This document shows positions 19,104-45,113 of a DNA stretch of 64,000 nt, in pieces (the stretch's first letter is position 1; the number at the start of each line of letters is the position of its first letter). The position numbers and the translations under genes are program-made. Source of the DNA: Bacillota bacterium (GTDB lineage: Bacteria; Bacillota; DTU030; DUMP01). Location of the stretch: the NCBI GenBank assembly GCA_012799605.1, contig JAAZKX010000046.1, positions 1-64,000 on the forward strand, written 5' to 3'. Under the pieces are notes generated by a model. That model saw nothing but the letters and a program-made list of their open reading frames with translations. It did no database searches and was not told the DNA's origin.

Positions 19104-19345
19104 ATAATTCACTGAATAACATAGTTATGATTGGGAGGAGTAGGCTGTCACAACCAGAGAGAGAAGCCCGGGGCTGCAAGGCTTCTCACCATGGCGCCGA
19201 AGTCGCCCAGGAACTTGCCCGGATGAACATCTAAGTAGTCGGGGCCGTCACCCGCGTTAAGGCTAAGAGCCTGGCTGAGTATTCAGCTGGGAAACTAAGG
19301 TGGTACCACGAACCTTCGTCCTTATATGGCGAGGGTTTTATGCTT
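19104..19345 (+). ncRNA. T-box riboswitch leader of valS (specifier GUC)
   Basis: T-box leaders sense uncharged tRNA and relieve premature termination. Stem I features are visible: a GGAGTAG start, the AGAGAG bulge (around 19157-19163), and a specifier region CCGAAGTCGCCC in which GTC (19202-19204) is a valine codon. The T-box core AAGGTGGTACCACG is at 19297-19310. The competing terminator pairs 19311-19321 with 19328-19337 and runs into TTTTA. valS begins 36 bp later. The specifier matches the gene it controls. The 5' limit is inferred from the promoter. Confidence 0.93.
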
Positions 19346-19381: not shown

Positions 19382-22036
19382 ATGAATATAAAAGACATCC
19401 CTACTGCCTATGATCCACATTTGGTGGAAGAAAAATGGTACCGTTATTGGTTGGACAATGCTTACTTTACACCGGAAATCGATACGAAGGTCGAACCTTA
19501 TACAATTGTAATTCCCCCCCCTAATATAACCGGTGCCCTGCATATGGGCCATGCGCTAGATAACACCATCCAAGATGTTCTTATACGATATCAGCGGATG
19601 AAAGGTAAGCCGACCTTGTGGTTGCCTGGGACCGATCATGCTGGTATTGCAACCCAGGCCCGGGTGGAGGCTGAATTGGCAAAGGAAGGGGTTAGCCGCT
19701 GGGATTTGGGCCGGGAAGAATTTTTAAACCGGGTTTGGGAGTGGAAAGACCGTTACGGCGGTCGGATCATTACCCAATTGCAGCGGTTAGGTGCATCATG
19801 TGACTTTACCCGGGAACGGTTTACTATGGATGAAGGCTGTTCGCGGGCGGTACGGGAAGTGTTTGTCAGCCTATATGAACGTGGGCTTATTTACCGTGGG
19901 AACTATATAGTGAACTGGTGTCCCCAATGCCACACTGCTATTTCCGATATTGAAGTAGAATATAAAGAAGCGGATGGACATTTATGGCATGTACGGTACC
20001 CGTTGGCCGGTAAGAAAGATGAATATATCACGGTTGCTACCACCAGGCCGGAAACTATTCTCGGCGATACTGCGGTAGCCGTAAATCCAAAAGATGAACG
20101 GTACCAGCATTTGATTGGCCTGGAAGCTGTACTGCCGGTAGTGGGGCGCCGACTGCCGATCATTGCCGACTACTACGTTGACCCTGACTTTGGAACGGGA
20201 GCGGTTAAAATCACCCCGGCCCACGATCCAAACGATTTCGAGCTAGGGCAGCGTCATGGACTGGATCAAGTAGTGGTCATTGGCCAGGACGGAAAAATGA
20301 CGGCTGAGGCCGGAACATTTGCCGGGCAAGACCGTTACCAGTGCCGGGAGCTGCTATTGGAAAAATTAGAGGCGGCCGGGCTAGTGGTAAAGGTAGAGGA
20401 TTTAATTCATGCTGTAGGCCACTGTTCGCGCTGTGATACGGTAATTGAACCGCTGCTGTCAAAACAGTGGTTTGTTAAAATGAAGCCCTTAGCCGAACCG
20501 GCTTTGAAGGCGGTAAAGGACCGGCGCATTAACTTTGTGCCTGAACGGTTCAATAGAATTTGCTGCCAGTGGATGGAAAACATTCGTGACTGGTGTATTT
20601 CCAGGCAGCTATGGTGGGGGCATCGAATTCCCGTTTGGTATTGCCGCGATTGTAAGACGGAAATTGCCAGTAGGGAAGACGTTGTCAATTGTACCGCTTG
20701 CGGTAGCGGCAACGTTTATCAAGACCCTGATGTTTTAGATACATGGTTCTCGTCAGCTTTGTGGCCCTTTTCCACCTTAGGCTGGCCTGAACGCACTGAG
20801 GATCTTAATTACTTCTATCCTACATCAGTGTTAGTTACCGGGCGTGACATTATCTTCTTTTGGGTGGCCCGGATGATTTTTATGGCCCTTGTGTTTATGG
20901 ATGAAGTCCCTTTCCGGGATGTATTTATCCATGGTCTCGTTTTGGATGCTAAAGGCCGCAAAATGAGCAAGTCCTTGGGCAATGGGATCGACCCTTTGGA
21001 AGTGATCGAAAAATATGGGGCTGATACCCTGCGGTTTATGCTGATCACCGGCAATGTGCCCGGCCATGACCTGCGGTTTCAATGGGAACGGGTAGAGGCT
21101 ACTAGAAACTTTGCCAATAAGATCTGGAATGTATCCCGGTTAGCGCTGCTCAACTTGGGGGACTTTGACCCTGAACAGGTGGATGTTCCCGGTTTGAAAT
21201 TCACTTTAGCTGACCGCTGGATCAGGAGCCGGTTTAGCTCAGTGAAAAACCAGGTAGTCGAACTTATTGACAGCTTTGATCTTGGCGGGGCAGCGCGAAT
21301 TTTATATGATTTCATTTGGGATGAATTTTGTGATTGGTATGTTGAGTTGGCCAAGCTGCGTTTGTATGGGCAGGACGCTCAGGAACGCAAGACCGCCCAG
21401 TATGTTATCTGGGAAGTCCTTGAACGGACTCTTCGGTTACTGCATCCATTTATGCCTTTCATTACCGAAGAAATATGGCAACTTTTGCCTGGAACCGGAG
21501 AAAGCATTATGATAGCTGACTACCCGGAAATTGTGGTAGAACAGGATCGGGTAGCTGAAGCTGACTTTGCTCTGATCCAGGAAGTCGTACGGGGTATTCG
21601 GAACGTCAGGGCCGAAATGAATGTTCCGCCAGCCCGAAAAGCGCGGGTTATCATCCAAGCCTATCCGGAGGCGGTGGCAATACTCGCTGCTGCGAAGCCA
21701 TACCTGCAAAGCTTAGCTTGGGCCCGGGAAGTAATCACAAGCGCGATCACTGACCAAAAACCATCCCAGGCGGCGAGCTTTATAACCCAAGGAGTGGAAG
21801 TTTATTTGCCTTTGGCTGATTTGGTAGACATGGAGAAGGAGATTGCCCGGATCAAAAAAGAAATCAGCGCCATGAAAGCCGAGGTCGAACGTTCAAAACG
21901 AATGCTGTCCAATAAAGGTTTTCTGGCCAAAGCGCCGGCTGCTATAGTACAGAAAGAGCGCGACAAAGAAGCTGGTTATCGAGATAAACTAGCCCGCCTT
22001 CAAGAACGGTTATCCCGTCTTGAGGGGGCTTGGTAA
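19382..22036 (+). CDS. valS: Valyl-tRNA synthetase
   Basis: This class Ia synthetase charges tRNA-Val and edits mischarged Thr. The 884-residue protein has the HIGH motif as ALHMGHALD, a CP1 editing domain with zinc-type cysteines (CPQCHTA; CSRCDT; CRDCKTE and CTACGS), the GRKMSKSLGN ATP-binding loop, an anticodon-binding domain and a C-terminal coiled coil (EKEIARIKKEISAMKAE) with SNKGFLAKAPA. Complete length. ATG follows GAAAGGAAATGGGGC. It is regulated by the T-box leader just upstream and is followed after 12 bp by folC, a common pairing. Confidence 0.98.
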   Translation: MNIKDIPTAYDPHLVEEKWYRYWLDNAYFTPEIDTKVEPYTIVIPPPNITGALHMGHALDNTIQDVLIRYQRMKGKPTLWLPGTDHAGIATQARVEAELAKEGVSRWDLGREEFLNRVWEWKDRYGGRIITQLQRLGASCDFTRERFTMDEGCSRAVREVFVSLYERGLIYRGNYIVNWCPQCHTAISDIEVEYKEADGHLWHVRYPLAGKKDEYITVATTRPETILGDTAVAVNPKDERYQHLIGLEAVLPVVGRRLPIIADYYVDPDFGTGAVKITPAHDPNDFELGQRHGLDQVVVIGQDGKMTAEAGTFAGQDRYQCRELLLEKLEAAGLVVKVEDLIHAVGHCSRCDTVIEPLLSKQWFVKMKPLAEPALKAVKDRRINFVPERFNRICCQWMENIRDWCISRQLWWGHRIPVWYCRDCKTEIASREDVVNCTACGSGNVYQDPDVLDTWFSSALWPFSTLGWPERTEDLNYFYPTSVLVTGRDIIFFWVARMIFMALVFMDEVPFRDVFIHGLVLDAKGRKMSKSLGNGIDPLEVIEKYGADTLRFMLITGNVPGHDLRFQWERVEATRNFANKIWNVSRLALLNLGDFDPEQVDVPGLKFTLADRWIRSRFSSVKNQVVELIDSFDLGGAARILYDFIWDEFCDWYVELAKLRLYGQDAQERKTAQYVIWEVLERTLRLLHPFMPFITEEIWQLLPGTGESIMIADYPEIVVEQDRVAEADFALIQEVVRGIRNVRAEMNVPPARKARVIIQAYPEAVAILAAAKPYLQSLAWAREVITSAITDQKPSQAASFITQGVEVYLPLADLVDMEKEIARIKKEISAMKAEVERSKRMLSNKGFLAKAPAAIVQKERDKEAGYRDKLARLQERLSRLEGAW

Positions 22037-42244: not shown

Positions 42245-42273
42245 TTGACAACGGTTATTAACTTAGCTATAAT
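42245..42273 (+). promoter_or_regulatory. Consensus promoter for the leuS leader and its nested tRNA
   Basis: A perfect TTGACA (42245-42250) and TATAAT (42268-42273) with 17-bp spacing. No other promoter is evident between here and the tRNA-Ala gene, so tRNA-Ala and leuS appear to share it. Confidence 0.93.
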
Positions 42274-42279
42274 GGCGAA

Positions 42280-42590
42280 GGTGACAAAAGAAATACCTTG
42301 GCGATGATAAGGAGTAGTAAGTAGCTAGCTTGACCGAAGAGAGCCGGTGGCAGGTGTGAACCGGTGGCAGCGGCTGCCGAACTCGCCTTAGAGCTAAAAT
42401 GTGAAGAGGGTAAAGAAGTGGGGCTGTGGCGCAGTGGGAGCGCGCTTCCTTGGCATGGAAGAGGTCACGGGTTCAACCCCCGTCAGCTCCACCAAGATTT
42501 ATGCTTTACCAAACAGGGTGGTACCGCGGGTTGGTACATAACCTCTCGTCCCTGGACAAGCTACAGGGCGGGAGGTTCTTTATATTTTTG
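42280..42590 (+). ncRNA. T-box riboswitch leader of leuS (specifier CUC) interrupted by a tRNA gene
   Basis: Stem I features are clear: GATAAGGAGTAGTAAG at 42306-42321, the AGAGAG bulge followed by hairpin CCGG/CCGG with loop around GGTGTGAA, and the specifier segment CCGAACTCGCCTTAGAGCT, where CTC (42382-42384) codes for leucine. The antiterminator core AGGGTGGTACCGCGG is at 42515-42529. The terminator pairs AACCTC...CCCT (42540-42553) with AGGG...GAGGTT (42564-42577), followed by CTTTATATTTTT. Between Stem I and the T-box, GGTAAAG (42409-42415) pairs perfectly with CTTTACC (42504-42510), in the place of Stem III; its loop is occupied by a whole tRNA-Ala gene. Such nesting is not something I know from other T-box leaders. 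Confidence 0.9.
42420..42494 (+). tRNA. tRNA-Ala (anticodon GGC), nested in the leuS T-box leader
   Basis: All arms are standard. Acceptor GGGGCTG pairs with CAGCTCC and includes the G3-U70 pair, the main alanine identity element. The D stem is GCGC/GCGC and the anticodon stem CTTCC/GGAAG carries loop TTGGCAT (GGC). The T stem ACGGG/CCCGT has loop TTCAACC, the discriminator is A73, and CCA is encoded. Nothing looks degenerate, so it should be functional. It is read in the same direction as leuS, before the leuS terminator, so it would be made whether or not leuS is expressed. RNase P and 3' processing would cut the leader apart. Confidence 0.95.
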
Positions 42591-42623: not shown

Positions 42624-45113
42624 TTGGCTTACAATGATGGGCAATATAATTTTCAGACTGTCGAGCGTAAGTGGCAAAATATCTGGGAGAAAGAGAACAC
42701 TTACCGGGTTCCTAACCGGAGCGAAAAACCAAATTATTATGTTCTGGAAATGTTCCCTTATCCTTCCGGGGCATTGCACATGGGGCATATCCGCAACTAT
42801 GCTATCGGTGATGTTGTTGCTCGTTTGAAAACTATGAGCGGCTATAATGTCTTACATCCAATGGGCTGGGATGCTTTTGGTCTCCCAGCGGAAAATGCAG
42901 CAATTCAGCGGGGCATACATCCGGTTGAATGGACCCGGGAAAATATTGCTAACATGAGAAGCCAGCAGAAACGCTTGGGATTGAGTTATGATTGGGAGCG
43001 CGAAGTAACTACCTCTGATCCCGAATACTATAGATGGACCCAGTGGATGTTTCTTTTAATGTATAACAGGGGTTTGGCCTATAAAAAACTAGCTCCGGTG
43101 AACTGGTGTCCTACTTGTCAAACTGTATTAGCCAATGAACAAGTAAGCGAAGGGGGTTGCTGGCGCTGCGGTACCCCGGCGGTTGAGAAGGATTTGGAAC
43201 AGTGGTTTTTCCGTACTACCGACTACGCTGACCGGCTGCTGAAGGATCTGGATCTGCTCGATGGCTGGCCGGAGCGGGTTCGCACTATGCAGGAGCATTG
43301 GATCGGTAAGAGCGAGGGGACGGATGTAACCTTTCCCTTGCCAGGGTATGAAAATGGAATTACGGTTTTTACCACCCGGGCCGATACTCTTTACGGGGTA
43401 ACGTTTATGACATTAGCCCCAGAACATCCTTTAGTAACAAAACTGGCTCAAGCCAGCCCTCGTAAACGAGAGATCATGGCTTTCGTCGATAAATGCCGGC
43501 AGGAAAGTAAAATAGAACGTGCTGCTGCGGATATGGAAAAGGAAGGAATGTTCCTTGATTCCTATTGCCTGAATCCATTAAATGGGGAACGGATCCCTAT
43601 CTGGGTAGCTAATTATGTTTTGATGGACTATGGTACCGGCGCGGTAATGGGCGTGCCAGCCCATGACCAGCGTGACTTTGAGTTCGCTAGGAAATACGGT
43701 CTGGCTATCCGGGTGGTAATTACACCACCGGGAACTGAACTTCAGGCTGATGATATGACAGGGGCCTATGTGGAGCCGGGCATTTTGATAAATTCAGGGC
43801 CCTATAATGGCTTGACCAATTTAGAGGGCCTGAAGCGGATTAATGCGCATCTTAAAGACCAAGGCTTTGGTGTGCCATCTGTTACCTACAGGCTGAAAGA
43901 CTGGCTTGTTTCCCGTCAGCGCTATTGGGGGGCGCCGATACCTATTATTTATTGTTCTCATTGCGGAACCGTACCAGTTCCGGAGACCGATTTGCCGGTT
44001 CTGCTGCCGGAACATATTGATTTTGACCCTAGCCTGATGTCGCCTTTGGCCCATGTAGCAGAATTTATCAACACTACCTGCCCGAAATGTTCTCGACCGG
44101 CGCAGCGTGAAACCGATACGATGGACACTTTTATTTGCTCTTCTTGGTATTATTTTCGTTATAGTGATCCTAAAAACGACCGGTTGCCATTTAGCAAGGA
44201 GGCAGCGGCGGCCTGGCTACCGGTGGATCAGTATATCGGTGGCGTCGAGCATGCTGTAATGCACCTGCTGTACTCACGCTTTTTTACCAAAGTGTTGTAT
44301 GATGCTGGTTGGGTACAAAAGGTTGAGCCTTTTACTAATCTCCTTACCCAGGGCATGGTAATTAAAGATGGTCATAAAATGTCCAAATCTAAGGGGAATG
44401 TAGTCGATCCGGAGGAGATAATAGCAAAATACGGGGCTGATACGGCTCGTCTATTTATCTTGTTTGCTTCCCCCCCGGATAAGGATCTGGAGTGGTCGGA
44501 TCAAGGGGTGGAGGGATCGTGGCGTTTTCTAAACCGAGTTTGGCGATTGGTAAAAGGGCTGGATGTGTTTGGTGCCATCGATGATGCCCACGATCAGCTC
44601 AGCCGAGCTGATCGTGATCTTCGCCATAAAATTCACCGCACGATCAAGAAGGTAAGCGAGGACGTGGAAGATCGTTTCAGCTTAAATACTGCCATTGCAG
44701 CTATTATGGAGCTCGTTAACGAAATCTATCGCTATAAGGACAATGTACCCTCGCCTGACCAAAATAAAGCGCTGCTAAAAAATGCGTTGGAAAATGTGCT
44801 CCTGCTGTTAGCTCCATTTGCCCCACATATTACTGCTGAATTATGGCAACAAACAGGGCATACCGAGAATATTCACGACTGTGCCTGGCCCAAATGGGAT
44901 GAAACTGCCCTTGAAGTTGAGGAACTAACTATCGTAGTTCAGGTAAATGGCAAAGTCCGTGACCGGCTGGTCGTAGCCGCAGATAGCTCCAGTGAGGAAA
45001 TAGAGCAACTGGCTTTAACAGCTCCTAAGGTACAGCCTTTATTGGATAATAAACAGGTGGACCGGATTATTAGTGTGCCAGGACGGTTGGTGAATATCGT
45101 AGTTCGTCCGTAA
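42624..45113 (+). CDS. leuS: Leucyl-tRNA synthetase
   Basis: Class Ia synthetase charging tRNA-Leu, with a CP1 editing domain. Key motifs are MFPYPSGALHMGH (HIGH), the editing-site TTRADTLYGVTFM, WVANYVLMDYGTGAVMGVPAHD, zinc-type CPTCQ and CWRCG, GHKMSKSKGNV (KMSKS) and the C-terminal VQVNGKVRDR. TTG at 42624 has AGAGGTGG seven bases ahead and yields 829 residues. It is controlled by the T-box leader above. Confidence 0.98.
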   Translation: MAYNDGQYNFQTVERKWQNIWEKENTYRVPNRSEKPNYYVLEMFPYPSGALHMGHIRNYAIGDVVARLKTMSGYNVLHPMGWDAFGLPAENAAIQRGIHPVEWTRENIANMRSQQKRLGLSYDWEREVTTSDPEYYRWTQWMFLLMYNRGLAYKKLAPVNWCPTCQTVLANEQVSEGGCWRCGTPAVEKDLEQWFFRTTDYADRLLKDLDLLDGWPERVRTMQEHWIGKSEGTDVTFPLPGYENGITVFTTRADTLYGVTFMTLAPEHPLVTKLAQASPRKREIMAFVDKCRQESKIERAAADMEKEGMFLDSYCLNPLNGERIPIWVANYVLMDYGTGAVMGVPAHDQRDFEFARKYGLAIRVVITPPGTELQADDMTGAYVEPGILINSGPYNGLTNLEGLKRINAHLKDQGFGVPSVTYRLKDWLVSRQRYWGAPIPIIYCSHCGTVPVPETDLPVLLPEHIDFDPSLMSPLAHVAEFINTTCPKCSRPAQRETDTMDTFICSSWYYFRYSDPKNDRLPFSKEAAAAWLPVDQYIGGVEHAVMHLLYSRFFTKVLYDAGWVQKVEPFTNLLTQGMVIKDGHKMSKSKGNVVDPEEIIAKYGADTARLFILFASPPDKDLEWSDQGVEGSWRFLNRVWRLVKGLDVFGAIDDAHDQLSRADRDLRHKIHRTIKKVSEDVEDRFSLNTAIAAIMELVNEIYRYKDNVPSPDQNKALLKNALENVLLLLAPFAPHITAELWQQTGHTENIHDCAWPKWDETALEVEELTIVVQVNGKVRDRLVVAADSSSEEIEQLALTAPKVQPLLDNKQVDRIISVPGRLVNIVVRP

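Follow-up and report, generated by a model that had tools for sequence, protein, structure and literature searches.

Dicistronic transcripts, in which a tRNA and an mRNA share one RNA, are known. Examples have been described in plants (PMC13293983). In the leuS, valS and serS T-box leaders of S. aureus, RNase Y cuts between Stem I and the T-box (PMC4608709). Two papers give the T-box discriminator motif as 5'-RRRNG-Stem III-AA-3' (PMC7778990, PMC7583486). The second of these, a T-box review, describes the stem and loop of Stem III as generally variable, and it mentions insertions in Stem III and Helix A2, and in every domain, 'with unknown structure and function' (PMC7583486).

The window (the whole 64,000-nucleotide stretch of DNA that was analysed) contains a complete leucine T-box leader of leuS with a canonical tRNA-Ala(GGC) gene inside it (Table 1). 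We propose, with a probability of roughly 0.8, that this is a transcription-attenuating leucine T-box in which a functional tRNA-Ala(GGC) gene has replaced the loop of Stem III, making it a dual-use leader. ARAGORN and Rfam RF00005 (66.1 bits) agree on the tRNA; together with an RF00230 alignment and direct reading they confirm the nesting and its coordinates as given in the original prediction. The RF00230 alignment, made with Rfam at a lax threshold, runs end to end over 42295-42556 (79.9 bits, E 6.9e-18) and takes up the tRNA as an insert. The curated cut-off of this family is 93 bits, which is an annotation rule and not a mechanism, and a standard Rfam scan therefore misses the leader. The 75-nt tRNA insert is probably the cause of the low score.

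Table 1. Positions of the leader elements and of leuS in the window.
Feature	Position	Strand	Basis or remark
Sigma-A-type promoter TTGACA-17-TATAAT	42245..42273	+	full consensus, 12/12 matches
T-box Stem I domain, AGAGAG / GGTG-type apical motifs	42295..42395	+	RF00230 alignment; homologues
Specifier codon CTC (Leu)	42382..42384	+	complementary to tRNA-Leu(GAG), encoded in the genome; GAACTCRYC context
RRRNG purine string AAGAG, 5' of Stem III	42404..42408	+	sequence; motif common to 113/117 leaders
Stem III 5' strand GGTAAAG	42409..42415	+	in-register pairing across leaders
Complete tRNA-Ala(GGC) gene, encoded CCA, G3:U70, replacing the Stem III loop	42420..42494	+	ARAGORN; RF00005
Stem III 3' strand CTTTACC	42504..42510	+	in-register pairing across leaders
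AA flank 3' of Stem III	42511..42512	+	kept in 103/117 leaders
Antiterminator, 7-nt T-box bulge TGGTACC	42514..42554	+	fold; RF00230 alignment
Leader terminator, hairpin 42540-42577 and U-rich tail	42540..42590	+	fold, -29.7 kcal/mol, z -3.4
leuS, leucyl-tRNA synthetase	42624..45113	+	TTG start inferred; mechanical ORF opens at GTG 42615

The specifier matches the regulated amino acid: CTC is read in the leader, leuS lies downstream and the genome encodes tRNA-Leu(GAG). Within the T-box sequence AGGGTGGTACCGCGG (42515-42529), TGGT at 42519-42522 complements the ACCA end of that tRNA-Leu(GAG). The antiterminator and the terminator are mutually exclusive alternative folds. Folded as a single strand, the Stem I region gave z -1.3, and the fold is not informative. 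The likely start of leuS, read from the sequence, is the TTG in Table 1, with an AGGTGG ribosome-binding site. Stem II and IIA/B are apparently absent from the leader of the window (42385-42408) and from those of its family and class (L001-L010), where there is little room between Stem I and Stem III; sequence resembling these elements is present in many other nested leaders. Stem II and IIA/B are optional in T-boxes, and accepted T-boxes such as glyQS also lack them.

In the promoter scan, the promoter of Table 1 is the only strong one. One weaker match (9/12) ends at 42308, and no promoter-like site was found between 42308 and the tRNA. Leaders of the other family members have the same kind of promoter. 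The prediction of a single promoter for both products is thus supported, and a separate tRNA promoter between Stem I and 42420, which had been named as a finding that would speak against the proposal, was looked for and not found. Elsewhere the window carries a second, ordinary T-box (19118-19326, Rfam 105 bits) with a GTC specifier context and no nested tRNA; it precedes valS (ORF 19382-22036, named from its sequence).

The segment around the tRNA reads AAGAG-GGTAAAG-[AAGT-tRNA-AGATTTATG]-CTTTACC-AA-ACAGGGTGGTACC. Since the AAGAG and AA flanks fit RRRNG-Stem III-AA, we identify the 7-bp helix as Stem III and the tRNA as its loop. The original prediction had the tRNA on a 7-bp helix in the place of Stem III; the helix is real, but the tRNA sits on Stem III and does not take its place. 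Comparison of leaders supports this pairing. Where the two anchors of a leader leave no choice of strands, 86% of positions pair in register, against at most 57% when one strand is slid by one to four bases, and several standard pair types occur at most positions. Shuffling partners gave a mean of 63% and a maximum of 68%, compared with 80% observed. Cross-pairing of unanchored helices (own 6.4, crossed 4.9) is a weak control because related stems are alike, and the case for the pairing rests on the anchored and slid controls instead. The thermodynamic minimum of the single strand favours a slightly different register; we regard the register as settled by comparison and not by folding. Relatives without the tRNA have an ordinary short loop on an empty Stem III, such as GGCA-TTC-TGCC-AA (L191) and GGCT-TTT-AGCC-AA (L193).

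The tRNA in the window has its cloverleaf, GGC anticodon, G3:U70 and CCA, and is preceded by U(-1), the optimal base for RNase P (PMC9433436). The draft genome of the window holds one GGC gene and one CGC gene in addition to the tRNA-Leu(GAG) that the specifier requires; a further tRNA-Ala copy may be missing, since the draft is 92.5% complete. By pattern search, exactly one tRNA-Ala(GGC) gene is present in 70 of the 75 nested genomes where the tRNA-Ala(GGC) pattern was seen. The nested tRNA is thus usually the only GGC gene found, and it is predicted to be a functional gene whose product is processed and alanylated. Five nested genomes (G008, G009, G011, G103, G203) have a second tRNA-Ala(GGC) gene elsewhere and offer a natural experiment on the retention of a nested copy alongside another.

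Features were counted over a non-redundant set of 117 nested leaders. Their tRNAs have complete acceptor stems, and G3:U70 is present in every one (117/117); U(-1) precedes the tRNA in 95. RRRNG is found in 113, the AA flank in 103 and the specifier context GAACTCRYC in 100. Pairing of the 5' leader with RCCA is a known brake on RNase P (PMC9433436). Such pairing, by at least 2 bp, is possible for 60 of 117 nested tRNAs and 22 of 65 control tRNAs (p 0.03), a slight excess among related sequences for which the p value is too good. Three nested leaders (L049, L068 and L076, from Coprothermobacterota, Caldisericota and a Bacillota assembly) have a very short Stem I in which no apical tRNA-elbow motifs were seen.

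The arrangement is widespread. The same leader turned up in all seven family members and in five members of the same class when 60 relatives were searched at the DNA level, and the tRNA and T-box part was matched in further families. A broader pattern, in which any CCA-encoding tRNA is followed within 8-38 nt by a T-box, gave at least 120 loci in named genomes. The tRNA is tRNA-Ala in 113 of them; the other seven (L037, L071, L079, L081, L106, L109, L110) were rejected as chance matches or unrelated tRNAs. The idea that several kinds of tRNA are nested in T-boxes was likewise dropped, as among the matches listed only tRNA-Ala is credible. In an even draw from the phylum of the window, the nested pattern occurs in 78 of 399 genomes, 51 of 267 genera and at least 25 families (families counted by hand), whereas a reversed control pattern occurs in one genome. 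Chance juxtaposition is rejected, the conservation being far beyond chance. Absence of the nesting from relatives had been named beforehand as a refuting result; the family and phylum counts show the opposite.

Named carriers include Syntrophomonas wolfei subsp. methylbutyratica, Thermosyntropha lipolytica, Desulfofundulus, Desulfotruncus and Desulfovirgula, as well as Ktedonobacter robiniae, Dictyobacter and Tengunoibacter. The nesting is also found in Chloroflexota and in assemblies labelled Armatimonadota, Atribacterota, Coprothermobacterota, Caldisericota and Actinomycetota; outside the phylum of the window these are matches without denominators. Single matches labelled Pseudomonadota or Desulfovibrio may be binning errors.

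Among the matches listed, leuS lies directly downstream of most nested leaders. An acyl-CoA-synthetase-like gene stands between leader and leuS in several Desulfotomaculum-like genomes, and an ilvE-like gene does so in Armatimonadota-like genomes; both names were assigned by eye from the translations rather than by a family search. One or other such ORF comes after the nested leader in L036, L042, L060, L075, L108, L121, L141, L149; L054, L069, L097, L112. Wherever these loci extend far enough to show it, leuS stands behind the intervening ORF and on the same strand.

Where a genome has a plain leuS T-box and its tRNA-Ala(GGC) locus was fetched, the tRNA gene lies elsewhere, alone or in a tRNA cluster (L022, L025, L027, L029). 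At two loci, L190 (G055) and L205 (G050), leuS is immediately preceded by a promoter, tRNA-Ala(GGC) and a terminator similar to the remnant of a T-box, with Stem I and antiterminator both missing. They are possible relics of the nested state, and their make-up points to the tRNA as the part retained. L188 has a terminator-like remnant only. On a leuS tree the nested leaders are clustered but scattered, with 15 changes of state of which at least five are forced by well-supported branches; the nested rows were picked by pattern, and the tree fits one gain followed by losses or transfers as well as it fits several gains. Since tRNA, site and specifier are alike in every case, a single early origin, with later losses and perhaps some transfer of leuS units, seems more probable to us than repeated gain.

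The sequence itself shows a promoter ahead of Stem I, a canonical tRNA and an intact set of switch parts: the leucine specifier, the two alternative conformations and the flanks of Stem III. We envisage that one strong promoter would constantly yield leader RNA. When tRNA-Leu(GAG) is charged, the terminator would form and transcription would stop after the tRNA, so that the short RNA would serve only as a precursor of the tRNA. With tRNA-Leu(GAG) uncharged, polymerase would read on and leuS mRNA would also be made. The tRNA would be made in both cases since it precedes the terminator, which accords with the expectation that its production is independent of termination. For the same reason alanine tRNA supply should not depend on leucine, and the further suggestion that alanine tRNA supply is linked to leucine sensing is not supported in that form. 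RNase P would cut the 5' end of the tRNA and other nucleases would trim to the encoded CCA; these steps would also part Stem I from the discriminator and clear away the leader once it has been used. What would maintain the arrangement is that the switch encloses the sole gene for an important tRNA. Pairing of the nested tRNA's own CCA with the T-box bulge in cis was considered and set aside, as the CCA would be tied in the chain until processing.

The strongest alternative accepts all of this anatomy and differs on why the arrangement is kept. It holds that the nesting is mainly an accident of history, in which a loop that tolerates insertion received a tRNA gene. The gene would then be kept only since the tRNA is indispensable, and neither switching nor tRNA supply would gain from it. 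We put this a little short of even odds. The variability of Stem III stem and loop in T-boxes described in the review (PMC7583486), the patchy distribution with its forced changes on the leuS tree and the possible relics that keep only the tRNA are all consistent with it. However, the nesting has been kept across several phyla with specifier, flanks and helix intact, although a second tRNA copy would free the leader, which suggests, without proving, more than inertia.

We consider it doubtful that processing is itself the regulation. In such a scheme the RNase P cut, by parting Stem I from the antiterminator, would compete with antitermination and act as a timer, a reset or a sensor of RNase P. 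RNase P would cleave the stretch from Stem I to the T-box, which is also where RNase Y cuts S. aureus leaders (PMC4608709), and 5' leaders able to pair with RCCA are slightly commoner in nested than in control tRNAs. That excess is weak, though, half of the leaders are without such pairing, and nothing shows that cleavage precedes the decision of the switch, some 90 nt later. Equally unlikely, in our judgement, is the broader version of this idea, an ancient class of riboswitch with a functional tRNA gene in its aminoacylation-sensing domain, in which RNase P, by maturing that tRNA, would itself act in the regulation and end or reset the switch. A directly regulatory role for tRNA processing is plausible, but the evidence does not require it.

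It is very improbable that tRNA and T-box work as two separate genes, with a promoter for the tRNA alone and nothing but position in common: a promoter stands directly before the tRNA in the possible relics L190 and L205, but in the window the interval from 42308 to the tRNA has no such site, only 38 nt separate specifier and tRNA, and Stem III pairs across the tRNA. Still more remote is the notion that the tRNA-like element is a structural decoy or pseudo-tRNA, working for the switch alone and unused in translation. Its location on Stem III, inside the sensing domain, speaks for this; its full cloverleaf, invariant G3:U70, GGC anticodon and encoded CCA speak against it, as does the failure of the pattern search to find another GGC gene in 70 of 75 nested genomes.

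The dual-use leader that we favour places a tRNA gene in a tRNA-sensing riboswitch across several phyla, and so joins tRNA production and T-box control, hitherto studied apart. It shows Stem III able to carry a structured cargo of 75 nt, and with the nested leader nature provides a way of asking if T-box decisions respond to processing of the leader. The nesting may also explain why standard annotation misses such leuS T-boxes, as seen for the window's own. Direct testing is feasible since cultured carriers exist (Syntrophomonas wolfei, Desulfofundulus, Thermosyntropha, Ktedonobacter). No earlier description of a nested tRNA was found in open-access papers, among them the one on the T-box database, an in silico survey of T-boxes and a 2020 T-box review; the original claim that no case had been described stands for that literature, not for the literature as a whole. 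The switch is a T-box and the cargo an ordinary tRNA, both known; the combination and its spread are apparently overlooked and undescribed.

Compared with known systems, the leader shares with the transcriptional leuS type of T-box (RF00230) (i) Stem I with a CUC specifier; (ii) RRRNG-Stem III-AA; (iii) the TGGN bulge; (iv) the antiterminator and terminator; and (v) its position upstream of an aminoacyl-tRNA synthetase gene. It differs in its Stem III loop, which is an entire tRNA gene, and, in the family of the window, in the apparent lack of Stem II and IIA/B; the window's leader also scores below the Rfam cut-off. None of the insertions mentioned in the available text of the T-box review is described there as a tRNA or a functional gene (PMC7583486). 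Unlike dicistronic tRNA-mRNA transcripts, the nested tRNA lies inside a conditional switch, between sensor and expression platform. In contrast to the RNase Y cleavage of S. aureus leaders (PMC4608709), the enzyme expected here is RNase P, and one of the products would be a tRNA.
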